Positions 3,097 to 14,640 of a DNA stretch of 25,127 nucleotides are shown here, one piece after another. Every line of letters starts with the position of its first letter. The stretch's first letter is position 1. A model generated the notes under the pieces. That model saw nothing but the letters and a program-made list of their open reading frames with translations. It was not told where the DNA came from and did not search any database. Position numbers and translations under genes: made by a program. The stretch covers positions 1-25,127 of IMG/VR virus record IMGVR_UViG_3300042090_000800. The stretch is one strand, 5' to 3'. The DNA is from a virus.

Positions 3097-3372
3097 ATGG
3101 CGGCTGAGCTGACGACTTGGGAAATTCTTACCGGCATCTTCATGCCCATTGCCGCCGGGGCTTTTGGCTTGGTATGGAAACGGCAGGAGAAGGTGGTGGA
3201 CACCAACGAAGCGCACCATGACGAGTTGTGGGAAGCGATCAACGAGCAGCGCAACGGGCTGGCCGCGCACCGGGAAGCTACTGCCAAGGATTACATCACC
3301 AAAGTCGATTTCAACCGCCTGGAGGCAAAGATTGACAGACTAGGCGACATTCTACGGGAGAGCAGAGAATGA
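3097..3372 (+). CDS. Membrane-anchored coiled-coil protein, possible spanin/holin accessory
   Basis: This 91-residue protein has one hydrophobic segment at about residues 9-27 (ILTGIFMPIAAGAFGLVW) followed by a charged, heptad-like helical region to the end (residues 30-91, rich in Glu, Arg, Lys and Asp). One membrane helix plus a coiled coil just before the endolysin is the architecture of inner-membrane spanin (Rz-like) or holin-accessory proteins. The small lipoprotein three genes downstream could be an outer-membrane partner. The family is not certain. It ends in an ATGA overlap with the endolysin gene. Confidence 0.6.
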   Translation: MAAELTTWEILTGIFMPIAAGAFGLVWKRQEKVVDTNEAHHDELWEAINEQRNGLAAHREATAKDYITKVDFNRLEAKIDRLGDILRESRE

Positions 3373-4037
3373 GCAGGGGACAGGACTTTCTTGACAGCGT
3401 GATCGTGCCAGCGCTCGACGCGCTGATGCTCGACAGCGTTGTGGCGCGGCAATTGCTGCTTGGCACCGCCATGCAGGAAAGCGGCTTGCGCGACATCAAC
3501 CAGATCGGCGGCGGCCCGGCCAAGGGGCCGTTTGAGATTGAAGACGCTACCCGCGCCGACATCACCCATTGGGCGACGGTGCGCCATCCCGAGTGGGCTG
3601 AAGCGCTGGAGCGCCTAGAAGGCGACATCAAGGACGCGGCGACCGCCCGGCTGCTCTATGAGCGTGCCCCCGGCACCATCGGCACGACGCCCGAGGAACA
3701 GGCCGCTTACTACAAGCAGTGGTACAACACGCCGCGAGGCGCGGCCACCGTCGCCGAGTATCTGGCGAATTGGAAAGTCGTTTCCGAGGGGGTGGTCTTC
3801 GATCTCCTCCCTTTGGAGCAAGCAGCCCTCCCAGCCTCGCCGCCGAGCCCGACGCCGTTGCCGGTGTTGCAGCCGGTGGAGACGGGAGCGGTCCTGTCGA
3901 ACCTGGACGAGCCGGTGACGGAGATAGTGGACCACGGCCTGCTGCCGGAGCCGGTGACGACCGTGGAGGATCAGGGCGGCCTGACGGTCACGGTGATGGA
4001 CCTCGGCCCGGCCCCCGCACCGGAGCAACCGGCGTGA
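3369..4037 (+). CDS. Lysozyme-like endolysin (peptidoglycan hydrolase)
   Basis: Residues about 20-140 carry the lysozyme/transglycosylase pattern of phage endolysins: AMQESGLR with probable catalytic Glu37, followed by QIGGGPAKGPFEIE (residues 47-59), which corresponds to the G-P-A-x-G-x-x-Q/E substrate-cleft motif. The protein would cut the glycan strands of the cell wall at lysis. There is no signal peptide, so export would need a holin, and a holin-like gene follows at once (GTGA overlap). The last 75 residues are a Pro/Val-rich, acidic, probably disordered tail with a loose repeat (EPVTEIVDHGLLPEPVTTVED), unusual for a small endolysin. A virion-associated wall hydrolase is the main alternative, but the lysis-gene neighbours favour endolysin. 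Confidence 0.72.
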   Translation: MSRGQDFLDSVIVPALDALMLDSVVARQLLLGTAMQESGLRDINQIGGGPAKGPFEIEDATRADITHWATVRHPEWAEALERLEGDIKDAATARLLYERAPGTIGTTPEEQAAYYKQWYNTPRGAATVAEYLANWKVVSEGVVFDLLPLEQAALPASPPSPTPLPVLQPVETGAVLSNLDEPVTEIVDHGLLPEPVTTVEDQGGLTVTVMDLGPAPAPEQPA

Positions 4038-4216
4038 GCGCGTGGCTTCTGGCGCGACTGGATGAACCGTCAACTAAGGCGGCCCTCTATTTCGCCATAG
4101 GCCACACGGCGGCGCTGGTCGCCGGTCCCGGCCCGATCAATTGGCACGCCCTTGGGGCTGTCCTCCTGCTGGCTCTCCAGCAGGCCATTACTGCTGACAA
4201 AGGAGCAACAGCATGA
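4034..4216 (+). CDS. Small holin-like membrane protein (GTG start)
   Basis: This 60-residue protein starts with GTG in a GTGA overlap with the endolysin stop and ends in an ATGA overlap with the lipoprotein gene, which fixes both ends. The same frame stays open far upstream, but that part only shadows the endolysin. Two hydrophobic stretches (ALYFAIGHTAALVAG and LGAVLLLALQQAITA) separated by a Pro-Gly turn suggest a two-helix membrane protein with a short charged C-terminus. Size, topology and position between endolysin and lipoprotein fit a holin that releases the endolysin. No specific holin family was recognised. Confidence 0.6.
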   Translation: MSAWLLARLDEPSTKAALYFAIGHTAALVAGPGPINWHALGAVLLLALQQAITADKGATA

Positions 4217-4419
4217 ACCGTGGAGCTATCTGTGCGATGCTGGCGGTGCTTACGCTATCCGGCTGTGCCGGGACATCCGTTACCGATGCCGCGAACGCGC
4301 TCAAGGACGATAAGACGAATGTTTGTGTTGTCGTTCACAACGCTTTCCCCCCCTTTGCCAACGACTTTACTATGATCCGTATGGGCGACCCTACGGGCAC
4401 AGCCCCGACTTGCAAATGA
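4213..4419 (+). CDS. Small lipoprotein, possible outer-membrane spanin (Rz1-like)
   Basis: This 68-residue protein has a lipoprotein signal: short basic N-terminus, hydrophobic core, and the lipobox L15-S-G-C18. After processing only about 50 residues would remain, ending in a Pro/Thr-containing segment with two more cysteines. A short lipoprotein next to an endolysin and holin is typical for the outer-membrane part of a two-component spanin. It is not as proline-rich as classic Rz1, so other lipoprotein roles (for example superinfection exclusion) remain possible. It starts and ends in ATGA overlaps. Confidence 0.6.
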   Translation: MNRGAICAMLAVLTLSGCAGTSVTDAANALKDDKTNVCVVVHNAFPPFANDFTMIRMGDPTGTAPTCK

Positions 4420-5153
4420 CCGACAACCAAATCCTGCTTCGCTTGGCGAAGCTTTCCGCAGCGGCCTATCTGATGGCCGAGACGGACGTGAAGGCGGCGG
4501 TGGAGGCATTGGATTACACCTATGTTGCCCGCGTGGCGTCGGATGAATGTGTGGCGATCATCGCCTCGGAAGAGGTTGATGGCGTGCCGGAGGCAGCGGT
4601 GTGCTTCCAGGGCACGCGCTTCGCGCAGAATACCGACCCCCAAGAGATTTGGGACGATCTGGACGATGGCACCATTGACCTCGGCCCCGAGGGGCAAGTG
4701 CATAAGGGCTTCTATGCGCCGATGTACGCCATTTGGCCGGATATCCTCGCCGCGTTGCCGGTCGGCTGCACCATCATCACCTTCACCGGGCACAGCCTCG
4801 GGGGCGTGCGGGCTAACCTTGCGCAGCGGCTCGGCCATGACGCGGGCTATTCCGTCGCCGCCGTCAGCTTCGGCGCTCCCAAGGGAGCCAACAAAGCCTT
4901 TTGGGACGCGCTCGGCATCAACCCGGTGCGGGTGGTGAACCGGCACGATTTCGCGCCCTTGTGGCCGCTCGCGGATATGCGCTGGTCGCAGCCGGAGCCG
5001 ATGACGTGGCTCAACAAGACGGGCTCAATGGAAATGGTCATCGGCTGGCGGGGAATATTGCCGTCCATCGGCGACCACGACATTGACAAGTATATCGCCT
5101 CGCTGGAGGGGATTATCGGGGCAAATCTGGACAGCGCGGCAGCGATGATTTAG
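4416..5153 (+). CDS. Class-3 lipase-like alpha/beta hydrolase
   Basis: The ATG at 4416 sits in an ATGA overlap with the lipoprotein stop; the same frame is open from 4323, but that part only shadows the lipoprotein. The 245-residue protein has the lipase class 3 layout: an N-terminal helical part, a strand with AAVCFQGT (residues 60-67), KGFY (97-100), the nucleophile elbow GHSLGG with Ser127 (125-130), VSFGAPKGAN (150-159), the probable acid Asp178 in NRHDFAP, and the probable His221 in IGDHDID. All three catalytic residues are in place. No signal peptide is visible. Inside a lysis cassette it may attack membrane or envelope lipids at the end of infection, comparable in idea to mycobacteriophage LysB esterases. 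That role is inference. Confidence 0.75.
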   Translation: MTDNQILLRLAKLSAAAYLMAETDVKAAVEALDYTYVARVASDECVAIIASEEVDGVPEAAVCFQGTRFAQNTDPQEIWDDLDDGTIDLGPEGQVHKGFYAPMYAIWPDILAALPVGCTIITFTGHSLGGVRANLAQRLGHDAGYSVAAVSFGAPKGANKAFWDALGINPVRVVNRHDFAPLWPLADMRWSQPEPMTWLNKTGSMEMVIGWRGILPSIGDHDIDKYIASLEGIIGANLDSAAAMI

Positions 5154-5179
5154 ATTGCAGCAGGCAAACGCCTAACTTT

Positions 5180-5185
5180 GGAGGG
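5180..5185 (+). promoter_or_regulatory. Shine-Dalgarno site that decides the start at 5190
   Basis: GGAGGG lies 4 bases before the ATG at 5190. It rules out the in-frame TTG at 5178, which overlaps this site, and places a clean signal peptide at the N-terminus. Confidence 0.7.
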
Positions 5186-5189
5186 TACT

Positions 5190-6389
5190 ATGCGTAAATT
5201 TTCCGCTCTCGTTGCGGCGTTTGCTATGGTTGCGAACACCGCTTTTGCTGCCAGCGTGCCGCAGGTAACGCTCGGCCAGTCTTCCTTGCCCGGCGATCTG
5301 CCGGATGTGAACCTCGCCATCACCAACGTCAATAATGCCGTCACGCCGCAGAGCATGGCGACCTTCTCGGCGTGGCGCAATTACGTCGATAACGGCGAGT
5401 TTGCCGTGCAGCAACGCGGCACCGCCGCGACGGCGGGCGGCACGACCGGCGCACCCGTTTATGTGCCGGATCGTTGGGCCGTTTCGACCAACGTGACTTC
5501 GGGCGCGGGCTACGGTCAGATCATCACCGGCACCCCGTCGCCGGTTACGGGCTCGGCGCAGAGCTTCAAAGTTTATCGCAACTCGGGCGCATTGACCCAG
5601 CCGGTTTGCACCATACACGAAGTCCCGACCTCGGAAAGTCAGGACTTGCAGGGCCAGCCGGTCACGCTGTCGTTCTATGCCCAGGCTCTCAGCGGCTTGG
5701 CGGCGGATAACGGCAATGTCATCAACGCCTATATCATCTATGGCACCGGCACCGATCAGGGATTGGGCACGCTGACCGCCTCCCCGGCGATCACCCCGGC
5801 CTGGACCGGCATCAACAGCTCCATCACGGCGGCTTACACCTTGTCGGCCTCCACCTGGAACCGTTACACCCTGACTGGCTCCATTCCGACCACCGCCAAC
5901 GAAATTGGCGTCGAAATCTGCTTCACCCCAACCGCGACGGGTGCCGGATCGACGGATGGCTTCGCTCTTGCCGATGTCCAGCTTGAACAAGGCACCACGG
6001 CTTCGGCTTTTGAGTACCGTCCTTACGGTATCGAGCTGGCGAAATATCAGCGGTATTATGTCCAGGTCGCCGATCTGGCCGCTACCTACACCTTCCCGTC
6101 CGTCTGCAACGTAGTGACGGCCAACACCACCGTCCGGTGCAGCTACATCCTGCCGGTCACGATGCGGGCCACCCCGACCACCACCGTTTCGACGGCTACC
6201 AGCTTCGGTATCTGGCTGACGGCGGGCACGGCGGGCACCTGCACCACCTTGGCGGCCACGGCCTCGGCGAGTACGCCAAATGCCGCTGCGCTGACTTGCA
6301 CGACCGGCGGCACCATCGCCCTCGGCACCGGGACCGCGCTAATCGGCGGGGGTACGGCGGGCACGCTCGGTATCTCGGCTGACTTCTAA
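5190..6389 (+). CDS. Virion-type protein with carbohydrate-binding-like domain and signal peptide
   Basis: The 399-residue protein begins with a Sec-type signal peptide: MRK, a hydrophobic core, then AFA before Ala21, a good signal peptidase I site. The mature part starts with a short helical region and then a pattern common in phage tail or minor structural proteins: NYVDNGEFAVQQRGT, VPDRWAV, a jelly-roll-like beta region with TLSFYAQAL and STWNRYTLTGSIP, DVQLEQGTTASAFEYRPYG, and then ELAKYQRYYVQ. This resembles carbohydrate-binding modules in tail proteins. The C-terminal 100 residues are Ala/Thr/Gly-rich beta sequence. A secreted form of a virion-type protein is unusual; it could act outside the cell or on the host surface. 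A strong hairpin terminator follows directly. Confidence 0.65.
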   Translation: MRKFSALVAAFAMVANTAFAASVPQVTLGQSSLPGDLPDVNLAITNVNNAVTPQSMATFSAWRNYVDNGEFAVQQRGTAATAGGTTGAPVYVPDRWAVSTNVTSGAGYGQIITGTPSPVTGSAQSFKVYRNSGALTQPVCTIHEVPTSESQDLQGQPVTLSFYAQALSGLAADNGNVINAYIIYGTGTDQGLGTLTASPAITPAWTGINSSITAAYTLSASTWNRYTLTGSIPTTANEIGVEICFTPTATGAGSTDGFALADVQLEQGTTASAFEYRPYGIELAKYQRYYVQVADLAATYTFPSVCNVVTANTTVRCSYILPVTMRATPTTTVSTATSFGIWLTAGTAGTCTTLAATASASTPNAAALTCTTGGTIALGTGTALIGGGTAGTLGISADF

Positions 6390-6391
6390 AT

Positions 6392-6422
6392 GAGAAGGGG
6401 GCTTCGGCCCCCTTCTCTTCTT
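6392..6422 (+). terminator. Intrinsic terminator, C(UUCG)G hairpin
   Basis: A perfect 11-base-pair stem (GAGAAGGGGGC at 6392-6402, matching arm at 6407-6417) closes a TTCG tetraloop and is followed by TTCTT. The very stable C(UUCG)G loop and its place 3 bases after a stop codon support a Rho-independent terminator. The T-tract is short, so read-through to the next gene is likely. Confidence 0.8.
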
Positions 6423-6432
6423 GGAGAGATAG

Positions 6433-7497
6433 ATGCCCCCATTTATCGTTTATGCTCTCCCGCGCAGCCGCACCGCTTGGGCGGCCAAATTTCTTTCTTA
6501 CCGGGACTGGTATTGCGGCCATGACGAGCTGCAACACATGCGCAGCCTGGACGACATTCGCGCTTGGTTCACCCAGCCCAACACCGGCACCGTCGAGACT
6601 GCCGCCGCGCCTTTCTGGCGGCTGGCGCGAACCTATTGCCCCGAGGCGGGGGTGGCAATTATCCGCCGCCCGATCCCCGAAGTAGTGGACAGCCTGCGCC
6701 GCGCTGGCGTGCCCGGCGACACGGCGCTGCTGACTAGGGCGATGGAAGTACACGCCCGCAAGCTGGACCAGATCGAACGGCGCATTCCCGACGCTCTCAC
6801 CATCACCTTTGACGAGCTGCGTGGTGAGGACGCTTGCGCCCGACTGTTCGCCCATTGCCTGCCCTATGCGCCCGATCCGGCTTGGTGGGAAAAGCTGGCT
6901 GACGAGAATGTGCAGATCAACATGGCCGCGCTGCTGCGCTATGTCGCCGCCTACAAGCCGCAGCTCGACAAGCTGGCGGGCATGGCGAAGCAAACCATTC
7001 TGTCCGGTTTAGCGGTGCGCCAGATCGCCGGGGCCGAGGGGCTAGTGATCGCCGCCGAGCCCTTTGAGGACTTTTACCGCGACAGCGGCAAGCTGTTTGC
7101 CGAGCATCTTGTGGAAGTCGGCGAAGCGCCGGACGCTTATTCGACCAAGAATTTGCCGCTCATGCGGGTGCTGGAAAAGCTCGGGGGGCTCCAGGTGGTG
7201 ACGGCGCGATGCAATGGCCGTGTTTTCGGCTATCTCATGTCGCTGATTGGTCCATCGCTGGAGCGCGAGGATATCAAGGTCGCCATGCATACCACATTCT
7301 TTGCTTCGCCTGACTTTCCGGGGCTTGGGTTGAAACTTCAACGGGCTTCCATTAGGATGTTGAAGGAGCGCGGGGTTTCCGAAGTCCTGTTGCGTGCCGG
7401 GCCGCGAGGCAGTGGCCCCCGGATGTCGGCACTCTATCGTCGCTGCGGGGCGGTCCCGGATGGCGAGCTGTTCAAGATTGCGTTTGAGGGAGACTAG
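6433..7497 (+). CDS. Sulfotransferase-like / GNAT acetyltransferase fusion
   Basis: GGAGAG upstream supports this start. The N-terminal half (residues 1-180) resembles phage sulfotransferase-family proteins: FIVYALPRSRTAWAA (P-loop-like 5'-phosphosulfate site at residues 10-17) and AIIRRPIPEVVDSL (residues 76-88, the 3'-phosphate-type Arg/Ser site). The C-terminal part (about 250-354) has a GNAT pattern: a strand VVTARCNGRVFGYLMSL, then FPGLGLKLQRASIRMLKERG (acetyl-CoA loop and helix, residues 295-314), then LYRRCGAV near the end. The combination suggests group transfer by two chemistries or one active and one structural domain. Substrates are unknown. It lies just before genes for probable internal virion proteins, so its product could be packaged or could modify capsid or host surface. 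Confidence 0.65.
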   Translation: MPPFIVYALPRSRTAWAAKFLSYRDWYCGHDELQHMRSLDDIRAWFTQPNTGTVETAAAPFWRLARTYCPEAGVAIIRRPIPEVVDSLRRAGVPGDTALLTRAMEVHARKLDQIERRIPDALTITFDELRGEDACARLFAHCLPYAPDPAWWEKLADENVQINMAALLRYVAAYKPQLDKLAGMAKQTILSGLAVRQIAGAEGLVIAAEPFEDFYRDSGKLFAEHLVEVGEAPDAYSTKNLPLMRVLEKLGGLQVVTARCNGRVFGYLMSLIGPSLEREDIKVAMHTTFFASPDFPGLGLKLQRASIRMLKERGVSEVLLRAGPRGSGPRMSALYRRCGAVPDGELFKIAFEGD

Positions 7498-7500
7498 GCT

Positions 7501-9189
7501 ATGGGGCTCGCAGCGGCAGGGGTGGCAATCGGTGCGGGCACTTTGGGCCTCGGCATCGCCAATTCGGTCAGCGGCCCCAGCGGCGGCTCGGCGGGCGCGG
7601 GCAGCGGCGGCGCAGCCCCCAATATCTACATCCCGAACAACCTTTCGGGCCAAGACGCCAATTTCAACACCCAGCAGAGCTACATTACCGGGCAAAGTCC
7701 TTGGGGCACTTTGGCCCCCGAATTTGGTTCGGTCGCCAATAATCTTTACAATGACCCCTACAATACGTCTTACCAGAACGCCTCCAACACGGCGGGCGCG
7801 ACTTCGGGTTGGGCGGGCAATGTCGCCTCGGGAGGCGTGGGGATGCTCGGCAACACTGCCGGGATGATTGGCGATGTGGGCGGCCTTTATTCGCAGGCCG
7901 CGAACAATCCCGGCTATGGCCTTGCGATGGGCGAAGCTCAGACCGGCGGCCAGTATCTCATGAATGTTGGCACCGGAGCTTATAATCAGGGTTCGCAGCT
8001 TGCCTCCACCGACATGGGGATGCTCCCGGCGGCGGCGAACACCTATAACGCCACGGTCAACAACCCCTATAACGCGCAGACCATCGGCGCGGCGGCGCAA
8101 GGCGGCCAATTGATGCAGGGCCAAGCGCTGACCGATTATGGCAATGCTGCGTCTATGTCGGGTGCGGGCAATTCGATCCTCAACACCGCCTTCGATCCGC
8201 AGCAGGCGCTCTATAACCAGCAATTCCAGCTCAACACCGATCAGACCCGCGCCGGGCTGGAAGCTCGCGGGCTCGATACCAGCGCCGCCGGGCAGGGGAT
8301 TGAGAACAACAGCGACCAGAATTTCAATATCGCTTGGCAGAATGCGCAGCTTGGCCGACAGGCGCAGGGGCTCTCCAGCGCCGCCGCCGCCGACCAGACC
8401 GCAAGCAGCTTGGGGACCGGCGCGGGTACCAATTACGCGACCGGCGGGGCGATGCCCGGCACGGCTTACACCGGCATCCAGAATGTCAATCAGGCGGCGC
8501 TAGGGAACTATGTCAACGCCGTGGGGGGCATCGGGCAGAACACCAACGCTGCAAACTCAATGGCGGCGACCGGAGCGCAACAGACCGCACAGGGCGGGGC
8601 GATGGGCTACAATTTAGCCCAACAGAACACCAACAACCAGATTGCCGCCTATGGCAATCTCGGCAACGCCGCCACCACCTATGGTAATATGTACACGCAG
8701 GGCGCGGCGCTCGGCAACTCGGCGGCGACGCTCCAGCAGAACGCCGGGGCGATGCCCTACAATGCCAGCCAAACCATTTATGGCAACCAGGGCAATGCGC
8801 TGAATAATTACCAGCAAGCTTACAACACTGGCATGATCCCCTATCAGCAGAGCATCCAGAACTCGCTCAATTACATGAACAATGGCACCAACGCCGGGAA
8901 CGCTTACGCCAGCGCGGCGCGGGGCTCTTGGGCGCAGGGGCAGCAGGCCAACCAAGCCTTCGGTGCCGGGCTCCAGGGCTTGAGCAACACCTTGATCGGC
9001 AATCAGAGCAACAGCGGTGGCTTGCTCGGGCAGGCGTCCAACCTCTATAACAATTGGAACAGCGGGGGCAGCAGCAACGGCGGTGGTGGCTCCAGCGGCT
9101 ATAGCTCAATGGGCGATCTGTCGAACTATCCGAGCTACACGCCGGTCACGACCACCGACCTCGCCGCGCCGACCTTCCCAACCCCCTAG
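7501..9189 (+). CDS. Asn/Gln/Ala/Gly-rich probable internal virion protein
   Basis: This 562-residue protein starts after a GAGGGAG site. The N-terminus is a hydrophobic Gly/Ala segment (GLAAAGVAIGAGTLGLGIA) that could insert in a membrane. The rest is strongly enriched in Asn, Gln, Ala, Gly and Tyr, with almost no Lys. Around residues 228-300 there is a more ordered segment (FDPQQALYNQQF, TRAGLEARGLDTSAAGQG, FNIAWQNAQLGRQAQG) of a type I associate with proteins near podovirus head/tail genes. With the next two genes it forms a trio similar in order and style to ejection (core) proteins that leave the capsid with the DNA. That role is inference. Confidence 0.6.
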   Translation: MGLAAAGVAIGAGTLGLGIANSVSGPSGGSAGAGSGGAAPNIYIPNNLSGQDANFNTQQSYITGQSPWGTLAPEFGSVANNLYNDPYNTSYQNASNTAGATSGWAGNVASGGVGMLGNTAGMIGDVGGLYSQAANNPGYGLAMGEAQTGGQYLMNVGTGAYNQGSQLASTDMGMLPAAANTYNATVNNPYNAQTIGAAAQGGQLMQGQALTDYGNAASMSGAGNSILNTAFDPQQALYNQQFQLNTDQTRAGLEARGLDTSAAGQGIENNSDQNFNIAWQNAQLGRQAQGLSSAAAADQTASSLGTGAGTNYATGGAMPGTAYTGIQNVNQAALGNYVNAVGGIGQNTNAANSMAATGAQQTAQGGAMGYNLAQQNTNNQIAAYGNLGNAATTYGNMYTQGAALGNSAATLQQNAGAMPYNASQTIYGNQGNALNNYQQAYNTGMIPYQQSIQNSLNYMNNGTNAGNAYASAARGSWAQGQQANQAFGAGLQGLSNTLIGNQSNSGGLLGQASNLYNNWNSGGSSNGGGGSSGYSSMGDLSNYPSYTPVTTTDLAAPTFPTP

Positions 9190-9199
9190 GAACAGGATC

Positions 9200-10471
9200 A
9201 TGTCGCTCAACTCGTCCATCGGCGCACTCGGCAACGGCTATATCGGTGCGGCGGCGCTGCAAAATCAGCAGAACGCCAATCAGCTCCAGCAGCTCCAGAT
9301 GCTCGCCGATCAGCAGCAGCTCGCGCAGAACCAGCAGCAGAGCCAGGACGCCAACGCGCTCAACACCGCCATCGGCAACTTCGCGCCCGATCAGATCGCC
9401 AATCTCTTCGCCAGCGCCGGGCAGAACACCGGCACCACGCCGCCGCAAGGCGGCCTGCCGCAGCCCCCAATGGGCGGCCCTCCGCCGCCCCAGCCCGCTC
9501 CGCAGATGGGGGCGCCGCCTCCGCAACAGGGTAGCCCGCAAATGCCGCCCCCGGCTCCGTCGCTTGGCGGGCCGCCGCCTAGGACCGCGCCGCCGGGCGT
9601 CGGTGGTGGTCCTCCGCCACAAGCACCGCCCCCGCCCAATCTTGGCCCCAACCAGCAAGGGGCGCAGGGCGCGGCAGCGGGACCGACGCCGCAGCAAATT
9701 CAGCAAGCCGCGCAGTCGCCGGACCCCTTCGTGCGTCAATCGGCGGAGATTGCCCAAAATCTGCCGCCGCCGTTGCGCGGACAGTTCTACCAGAAGTTTT
9801 TTATGCCGCTGATGCAGCAGAAAGCCGAGACGCAGGCCGCCGCCACGTCGCTCCAACTCAAGCGGCGCGGTATGGACTTGGCCGAGCGCAAGGAAGACGA
9901 TCTGGTGGATTACCGCTCAAGCGTTGTGGACAACAAGAGCGCCGAGCTGGCCATTAAGCAAGCCTCCGCCGAAGCGCGGGCTGCAGTGGCGGAAGGGCGT
10001 CTGTCTGTTGCCCAGGCGCAATCCAAGCTGGAAGAGACACAGAAGGGCATCAATCAGCAGCTTGCCGATATCCAGAAGCAAAAGCTGGAGCTGGACAAGG
10101 GCAAGGTTGACGCGACCGGCGACAAGGCCGAAGTGGATATGGCTTACAAAGAGTTTGACGAGAACCGCAAACTCTATGGCCAGCTTGCCGCCAGCCCTAC
10201 AGCTTCTCCAGATGATGTTGCGGCGGCCAAGGCTGCGATGCTGGAAAGCAAGAAGACCTATGAGGCTTCCGCCAACGCTTTTAAAGCTAAGCGCGGCGGC
10301 GCAGGCAAGCCTGCGGCACCAGCAAAGCCCGACGCGGCCCCCGCTACGCTTGACGCTTATAAATCCACCGACGATGTTGCCGCAGCCTACAAGGCGGGCA
10401 AGATTGACCGGGCAACCGCCGAGAAGATTTTGACGGACAAGTTCGGGGTTTCGGGCAATGCCCAGCCTTGA
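9200..10471 (+). CDS. Gln/Pro-rich coiled-coil probable internal virion protein
   Basis: The ATG at 9200 follows AGGAACAGGATC; the frame is open from 9017, but that part is a shadow of the previous gene. The 423-residue protein has a Gln-rich N-terminal helix (about 20-50), a long Pro/Gly/Gln-rich, surely disordered stretch (about 75-165), and a charged coiled-coil region (about 190-330, with many Lys, Glu, Ala and Gln). After an Ala/Pro/Lys linker it ends in a small helical domain (STDDVAAAYKAGKIDRATAEKIL) of a type often found at the end of phage structural or scaffold-like proteins. No enzyme motif is visible. It overlaps the next gene by 14 bases. Confidence 0.6.
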   Translation: MSLNSSIGALGNGYIGAAALQNQQNANQLQQLQMLADQQQLAQNQQQSQDANALNTAIGNFAPDQIANLFASAGQNTGTTPPQGGLPQPPMGGPPPPQPAPQMGAPPPQQGSPQMPPPAPSLGGPPPRTAPPGVGGGPPPQAPPPPNLGPNQQGAQGAAAGPTPQQIQQAAQSPDPFVRQSAEIAQNLPPPLRGQFYQKFFMPLMQQKAETQAAATSLQLKRRGMDLAERKEDDLVDYRSSVVDNKSAELAIKQASAEARAAVAEGRLSVAQAQSKLEETQKGINQQLADIQKQKLELDKGKVDATGDKAEVDMAYKEFDENRKLYGQLAASPTASPDDVAAAKAAMLESKKTYEASANAFKAKRGGAGKPAAPAKPDAAPATLDAYKSTDDVAAAYKAGKIDRATAEKILTDKFGVSGNAQP

Positions 10472-13317: not shown

Positions 13318-14640
13318 ATGGCCCGCATCCTTATTATCGACAAGGGCGGCTACGTCGTCGATTGGGCGCTGCGGTGCCAGAATGACGGCCACAAGGTCAA
13401 GGTCTATATCCGGCAAACCGAAAAGACCCGGTTCATCGGTAAGGGGCTCCTTGACCTTGTGGCAGATTATCGGGAATGGAAGCGGTGGGCTGACCTCGTT
13501 TTCCTCCCCGACAACACCATGTATATTGACGAGCTGGAAGTATGGCGCAAAGAAGGCATCCCCGTTGTCGGCTGCAATGTTGAATGCGCCAAGTGGGAAC
13601 TGGAGCGCGGCACCGGGCAAAATATTTTCCGCCGGGCCGGGATTGAAGTTCCCAACTCCAAAGTTTTCAACGACTATGACGCGGCGATTCGGCATGTGAA
13701 GCGCGAAATGAAGCGCTTCGTGTCGAAGCCGGACGGCGACGCCGACAAGGCGCTGTCCTACTGCTCAAAAAACCCCGCCGATATGGTGTTCATGCTGGAG
13801 CGGTGGAAGAAGACCAACAAGCTCAAGCGGTCTTTTATTTTGCAAGAATTTATCCCCGGCACCGAAATGGCGGTTGGCGGCTGGTTCGGCCCCGGCGGCT
13901 TCAATGATGGCTGGTGCGAGAATTGGGAATTCAAAAAGCTGATGAATGGCGACCTCGGGGTTGCGACCGGCGAGCAGGGCACCGTGCTACGGGTAGTGAA
14001 GAAATCAAAGCTGGCCGATAAGGTATTGGTGCCGGTGGCCGACGCGCTGGAAAAAGCGGGATATGTCGGCTACATTGACGTGAATTGCATTATTGACGAG
14101 AACGGCACGCCGCTGCCCCTGGAATTCACTTGCCGCCCCGGCTGGCCGCTTTTCAATATTCAGCAATCGTTGCACCAAGGGGACCACGCGGAATGGCTGC
14201 TCGATCTGGCCGAGGGACGGGACGCAAACAACTGGCTGATGGACACCATCGCCGTGGGAGTGGTGCTGTCGATCCCGGACTATCCCTACAGCCAATTCAC
14301 CCGGAAGGAAGTGCGGGGGATACCGATCTATGGATTGAAGCCCTCGCTGATGTCCCAAATATCCCCCTGCGAGATAATGATGGGGGAAGCCCCGCAGATG
14401 TTCGGGGACGCGATAGAGACGGGGCCGATCTGGACGACAGCGGGGGACTATGTGCTGGTGACGCACGGCACCGGGCAGACGATCCTGCAAGCCAAGAACG
14501 CGGCCTATCGGGTCATGAAGAAGCTGGAGCTTCCGAACTCCCCGATGTACCGGACGGACATTGGGGATCGCTTGAAGAAGCAATTGCCCACACTGCAAGC
14601 CCAGGGCTACGCGCTGGGGATGCAGTGGACGACCGCGTAA
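13318..14640 (+). CDS. PurD-like ATP-grasp ligase (divergent GAR synthetase homologue)
   Basis: The 440 residues align by eye with PurD (phosphoribosylamine-glycine ligase, about 430 residues) over the full length. Matches include the N-terminal strand-loop ARILIIDKGG, GIPVVGCNVECAKWELERG (PurD: KIFGPTAGAAQLEGSK), FILQEFIPGTEMAVGGWF (ATP-grasp strand, Glu177), GDLGVATGEQGTV in place of DTGPNTGGMG, GYVGYIDVNCIIDENGTPLPLEFTCRPGWP, and a C-terminal GDYVLVTHGTGQTILQAKNAAYRVM like the PurD C domain. Two signature sites differ: the glycine-rich substrate loop and the metal-site EFNCRFGDPE, which reads EFTCRPGWP (Glu269, Thr271 for Asn). An ATP-dependent acyl-phosphate ligation is likely, but the substrates may not be phosphoribosylamine and glycine. 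It follows the basic peptide gene by 4 bases and overlaps the next gene. Confidence 0.75.
   Translation: MARILIIDKGGYVVDWALRCQNDGHKVKVYIRQTEKTRFIGKGLLDLVADYREWKRWADLVFLPDNTMYIDELEVWRKEGIPVVGCNVECAKWELERGTGQNIFRRAGIEVPNSKVFNDYDAAIRHVKREMKRFVSKPDGDADKALSYCSKNPADMVFMLERWKKTNKLKRSFILQEFIPGTEMAVGGWFGPGGFNDGWCENWEFKKLMNGDLGVATGEQGTVLRVVKKSKLADKVLVPVADALEKAGYVGYIDVNCIIDENGTPLPLEFTCRPGWPLFNIQQSLHQGDHAEWLLDLAEGRDANNWLMDTIAVGVVLSIPDYPYSQFTRKEVRGIPIYGLKPSLMSQISPCEIMMGEAPQMFGDAIETGPIWTTAGDYVLVTHGTGQTILQAKNAAYRVMKKLELPNSPMYRTDIGDRLKKQLPTLQAQGYALGMQWTTA

Follow-up and report, generated by a model that had tools for sequence, protein, structure and literature searches.

A lipoprotein-lipase gene pair in a phage lysis cassette and its recurrence beside unrelated endolysins

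The viral contig IMGVR_UViG_3300042090_000800, a partial genome of 25.1 kb that we analysed over its whole length (hereafter the window), carries at 3097-5153 a probable late lysis cassette; the virus would be a tailed phage, probably with a Gram-negative host. This cassette ends with genes for a small lipoprotein and a class-3 lipase. Similar lipoprotein-lipase pairs lie beside unrelated endolysins in other phages, making the pair a concrete and testable candidate for the question posed by spanin-less phages; Kongari 2018 lists such phages and calls for another route, and does not mention lipases in its text (PMC6139136). Reasoning from the sequences, we lean towards a role as a third lysis enzyme, in which the lipase would leave the cytoplasm with the endolysin and, partnered by the lipoprotein, attack phospholipids of the outer membrane. 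If true, this would be a parallel to mycobacteriophage LysB outside the mycolata and, unlike the spanins, an enzyme; outer-membrane breakage by such a pair would be an enzymatic route not described for these phages.

A five-gene cassette ending in a lipase

The first-pass annotation of this DNA described a compact five-gene lysis cassette that includes a lipase, and the genes are indeed present at 3097-5153 and form a lysis-type set (Table 1). There is a 4-nt overlap at every junction within the set of five, which suggests translational coupling. Genes for a PolA-like polymerase, a DUF927 primase and an SNF2-type helicase share one strand of the window, with the tail and lysis genes on the opposite strand.

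The cassette order is kept in two independent viral contigs, one represented by two records that are near copies of each other across this region (L002/L003) and the other by L004. In each, a coiled-coil/TM protein is followed by an endolysin, a two-TM protein, a lipoprotein, a lipase and a fibre protein with a signal peptide. Their lipases are 69% (L002/L003) and 59% (L004) identical to that of the window, and for endolysins and lipases together the range is 56-69%. A lipase gene lying far from the lysis genes in related phages had been named in advance as the observation that would count against a lysis role; in these close relatives the order is conserved instead. The tail-fibre-like gene is the next one downstream of the lipase in both the window and L002-L004, and is probably outside the lysis set. 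Scans of bacterial genome contigs for relatives found none, and hence gave no prophage or host.

Table 1. Genes of the cassette and the gene that follows it in the window.
Feature	Position	Strand	Remarks
Coiled-coil/TM protein, 91 aa, phrog_462-like	3097..3372	+	N-terminal TM, charged coiled-coil-like region
Putative endolysin, 222 aa, lytic-transglycosylase/lysozyme-like	3369..4037	+	phrog_3108
Holin-like protein, 60 aa, GTG start	4034..4216	+	two hydrophobic stretches
Lipoprotein, 68 aa	4213..4419	+	lipobox LSG-C18
Class-3 lipase, 245 aa	4416..5153	+	PF01764; S127, D178, H221
Tail-fibre-like protein, 399 aa, Sec-type signal peptide	5190..6389	+	phrog_4492 E 3.2e-28

The lipase

Lipase_3 (PF01764) is the only Pfam family matched by the window lipase (E 1.8e-10; 41.3 bits against a curated cut-off of 22), and in PHROGs the protein belongs to phrog_21992 (esterase/lipase). 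A profile of three relatives matched the Thermomyces lanuginosus lipase at 8e-10. Our structure models have moderate or low confidence; with the partly low-confidence lipase model as the Foldseek query, ranks 1-22 consisted entirely of class-3 lipases and esterases together with a phospholipase A1. The intact class-3 triad claimed earlier (Ser127-Asp178-His221) is borne out by the family match and by both alignments: a GXSXG serine followed by Asp and then His is invariant at S127, D178 and H221 in a three-member alignment of close relatives, and equally so in a five-member alignment that reaches distant relatives and includes FLC9 and Cr-LKS4. The oxyanion region is Q65-G66-T67. The ATG at 4416, which overlaps the stop codon of the lipoprotein gene, is the best start and gives 245 aa; by inspection we found no signal peptide. 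Compared with the Thermomyces/Rhizomucor-type class-3 lipases, the family, triad order and oxyanion region are alike, but the window enzyme is phage-encoded, lacks a signal peptide and belongs to a lysis cassette. A role as a virion enzyme was considered and dropped, as no structural domain was seen and the gene is placed after the genes for the holin-like protein and the lipoprotein.

Two observations on other class-3 lipases were made along the way. Some from marine phages carry a lipobox at their own N-terminus, making them lipase lipoproteins (L079 4653-5405, L082 4882-5601, L092 4884-5639 and L103 4884-5618); those of L079 and L103 lie outside recognised lysis cassettes. MT836410.1 (L026), labelled Bacteriophage sp., encodes a VgrG-like protein, a lipoprotein and a 697-aa lipase-domain protein and resembles a bacterial type VI secretion locus. 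Because of the VgrG-like gene it reads as a bacterial secretion-effector locus, and we rejected it as a phage match.

The other cassette proteins

The endolysin is putatively lysozyme/SLT-like, an assignment drawn from weak profile matches. It matches phrog_3108 at E 1.6e-20 and no Pfam family, while its relative in L008 matches SLT at E 0.001, PDB lytic transglycosylases are reached at E 0.07, and phage PP99 has a relative with the annotation lytic murein transglycosylase. Among 11 endolysin relatives, E37 S38, G49 and N120 are invariant, and the common E-S, G, Q and Y-N positions are reminiscent of SLT enzymes; the C-terminal tail is Pro/acidic. A Foldseek search with the low-confidence endolysin model returned nothing significant.

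The hydrophobic stretches of the holin-like protein were identified by eye, and one scores 1.33 in a hydropathy scan. No family match was strong enough for naming it, and the counterparts in L002 and L004 have the same position and form. The first protein of the cassette (phrog_462, E 1.7e-5) has a single TM at about residues 9-27, ahead of its charged region. The KR following this TM would probably leave the C-terminal region in the cytoplasm, and the protein is therefore probably not an i-spanin, as judged from these flanking charges. In L004, the TM of the first protein is at the opposite end to that in the window.

A lipoprotein accompanies the lipase

Across the sequences compared, the constant companion of the lysis-linked lipase appears to be a lipoprotein, which usually is encoded immediately upstream and has two additional cysteines. 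The window's lipobox (LSGC) is the sole match in a six-frame lipobox scan of the whole window. The mature part comprises 51 aa, of which 7.8% are Pro, and contains two Cys besides C18 (21, 50); the residue at +2 is Ala, which we take to indicate an outer-membrane type by the +2 rule. Its best 19-mer has a mean hydropathy of 1.06; the hydropathy scan found no second hydrophobic segment or C-terminal TM, so this protein does not have the make-up of a unimolecular spanin. In several longer lipoproteins, unlike the window's, a hydrophobic stretch is present, and these may be unimolecular spanins.

Near lipases, we counted 34 lipoprotein-like ORFs where 4.9 would be expected from the same contigs, the loci being partly redundant. 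The lipoprotein gene is directly upstream of the lipase in 14 compared loci, the window included, and its stop overlaps the lipase start at all 12 junctions checked. Exactly two Cys beyond the lipid-bearing one are present in 13 of these 14 lipoproteins (for L087 by visual reading), and Asp is not found at +2 in any of them. The stop of an Rz1-like gene overlaps the lipase start likewise in L074. In another lipase clade the lipoprotein is downstream, between lipase and endolysin; here the pair is constant, and some members have a GH24 endolysin, others an M15 one.

Recurrence across phages

To investigate how widespread the arrangement is, we used a five-sequence lipase profile, which gave 80 IMG/VR loci with Lipase_3. 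Many of these adjoin endolysins, and once named phages are counted at least seven unrelated endolysin types are represented. The named phages include BgManors32 (gp42) of Burkholderia gladioli and QDWS (gp14) of Shewanella baltica, in which related class-3 lipases are found in the same cassette order as in the window. The first-pass annotation, which called a lipase not usual in lysis sets of Gram-negative phages, thus understated how often one recurs there. No title or abstract in the open-licence literature searched reports a lipoprotein-lipase pair in lysis cassettes. Shewanella phage QDWS (OK094664.1) and "Hujiaoplasma phage zrk29-1" (OP650936.1, Tenericutes host) are both 47902 bp long and have identical lipase match scores; one of the two host labels may be wrong.

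Pfam searches of about 50 of the 80 lipase records detected endolysins of the GH24, GH108, M15_4 and M15_3 families, and most records with such a detection had the endolysin near the lipase. Within these 50 records Amidase_2 was absent, GH19 occurred only at a distance from the lipase, and SLT matches lay more than 10 kb from it, several in very long frames. Reading the neighbouring genes added GH19 (BgManors32, QDWS), glucosaminidase (L104) and Hydrolase_2 (L033), all confirmed by Pfam. The lipase is at most 2.6 kb from a recognised endolysin in 14/18 records (3.9 expected), and in 9/13 (1.8 expected, p 5e-6) of a strict subset with short contigs and near relatives removed; both expectations assume uniform gene placement, a lenient null since late genes cluster, and the records are partly related.

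This association is not shared by all phage lipases. About half of the sampled phage Lipase_3 genes are outside lysis cassettes, and a tree of 62 lipases, labelled by hand from their gene neighbourhoods as lysis-linked or other, has 6-7 label changes, indicating that the association was gained or lost repeatedly. We dropped lysis as a universal role because the lipase of P-SSM2 and others are found elsewhere: P-SSM2 PSSM2_200, a related class-3 lipase, has no annotated endolysin within 5 kb. Roughly 4 kb separate XacN1 ORF279, also a related lipase, from a chitinase gene.

Relationship to spanins

BgManors32 and QDWS are complete genomes that carry the pair, and we found no recognisable two-component spanin in either. 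A six-frame scan of QDWS gives a single lipobox ORF, the lipoprotein next to the lipase; BgManors32 has one credible lipobox ORF, its other three lying within a tail-fibre gene or on the strand opposite annotated genes. A hydropathy heuristic likewise detected no type-II membrane protein on the coding strand at the lysis genes of these two phages. The window itself is a fragment, and spanins could lie elsewhere in its genome.

Two further loci show how the two systems relate. L010 has an endolysin of the same family as the window's and no lipase; an Rz/Rz1-like pair follows the holin, where the window has its lipoprotein and lipase. This locus carries both a relative of the first protein and an Rz-like protein. 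L074 has an overlapping Rz/Rz1-like pair as well as a lipase, so the lipase can add to spanins and is not simply their substitute; we dropped strict spanin replacement for this reason.

A possible mechanism and its alternatives

In the reading we lean towards, the endolysin and the lipase, neither with an export signal, would be made in the cytoplasm and reach the periplasm once the small two-TM protein, as the holin, opens the inner membrane. The endolysin would then cleave peptidoglycan and the lipase, with the lipoprotein as partner, would attack outer-membrane phospholipids, so that an enzyme does the job done elsewhere by spanins. Here we infer the holin role, the release route, the outer-membrane target, the phospholipid substrate and the lipoprotein-lipase interaction.

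The functional precedent is LysB of mycobacteriophages, a serine esterase that performs a third lysis step against an outer membrane (PMC6116114). In phage Ms6, loss of lysB is reported to delay release and leave virions trapped. The two enzymes are alike in having GXSXG, Ser-Asp-His and a place in a lysis module with an endolysin and a holin, both putative in the window. However, LysB is cutinase-like and cuts the ester linking mycolic acid to the wall polymer of mycolata, whereas Lipase_3 is the sole Pfam family matched by the window enzyme, its gene is paired with that of a lipoprotein, and its named counterparts belong to phages infecting Gram-negative hosts. Spanins (both Rz/Rz1 and unimolecular) have in common with the pair a lipoprotein in the lysis cassette, predicted to be of the outer-membrane type in the window, and a presumed outer-membrane disruption step; the window differs in having no recognised i-spanin, and an enzyme in place of membrane fusion. 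In colicin systems, the lysis lipoproteins are activators of outer-membrane phospholipase A (PMC9517006), so that a small lipoprotein and a phospholipase damage the envelope and release cell contents. For a lipoprotein-lipase pair this is the nearest analogy, but an analogy only: the colicin system's phospholipase is a host outer-membrane protein, and the window encodes a soluble class-3 lipase.

Lysis-cassette lipoproteins are usually o- or u-spanins, and 31 genomes in Kongari 2018 have a lipoprotein without a linked i-spanin (PMC6139136). The lipoprotein alone could therefore be the outer-membrane lysis factor, as a u-spanin or as an o-spanin with the cassette membrane protein, and the lipase a passenger late gene that, for example, degrades host lipids. 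The longer relatives in L087, L090 and L106 do have a hydrophobic C-terminal stretch, but the 51-aa mature lipoprotein of the window has no second hydrophobic segment, and the TM of the coiled-coil protein is towards the C-terminus in L004, L029, L104, L106 and L107, which is wrong for a type-II i-spanin. As lipase and lipoprotein also remain adjacent while endolysins change, we consider this explanation unlikely. We give still less weight to the lipoprotein being an inhibitor of the lipase, as in toxin-immunity pairs, with the lipase acting on host or competitor membranes after release. A distant lipase relative is indeed encoded next to a lipoprotein gene in a VgrG-type secretion locus, and the window lipoprotein weakly matches a model of a putative immunity lipoprotein of T6SS (E 0.005), but this match covers largely the signal peptide. 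Moreover, a periplasmic inhibitor would meet a lipase without an export signal only after the holin fires, and a gene placed between holin and lipase seems to fit co-release better.

Class-3 lipases have varied substrates, and the target could also be a host-specific envelope ester (e.g. lipid A acyl chains, sphingolipids or storage lipids) rather than ordinary phospholipids. The same type of pair is nevertheless found in Burkholderia and Shewanella phages, whose hosts differ in special lipids; this would favour a shared substrate, such as phospholipid, and make a host-specific target improbable. Beyond the window, we tentatively propose, at rather less than even confidence, that an outer-membrane lipoprotein with two extra cysteines and a class-3 phospholipase made in the cytoplasm form a widespread and distinct enzymatic route of outer-membrane disruption in Gram-negative phages, exchangeable between endolysin types and able to replace spanins.

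Other observations

Sec-type signal peptides begin several tail-fibre- or spike-like proteins (e.g. MRKFSALVAAFAMVANTAFA-A), namely those at 5190-6389 in the window, at 4483-7659, 7992-9236 and 9256-10683 in L018, and at 7788-9053 in L022; such signals are unexpected on virion proteins, whose assembly takes place in the cytoplasm. The window also encodes a PurD/GARS-like ATP-grasp protein at 13318-14637 (TIGR00877 E 6.6e-25, below cut-off), and at 6433-7497 a protein in which a phage hydrolase-like domain (phrog_10855) seems to be fused to an acetyltransferase-like part (phrog_1249) at the C-terminus.
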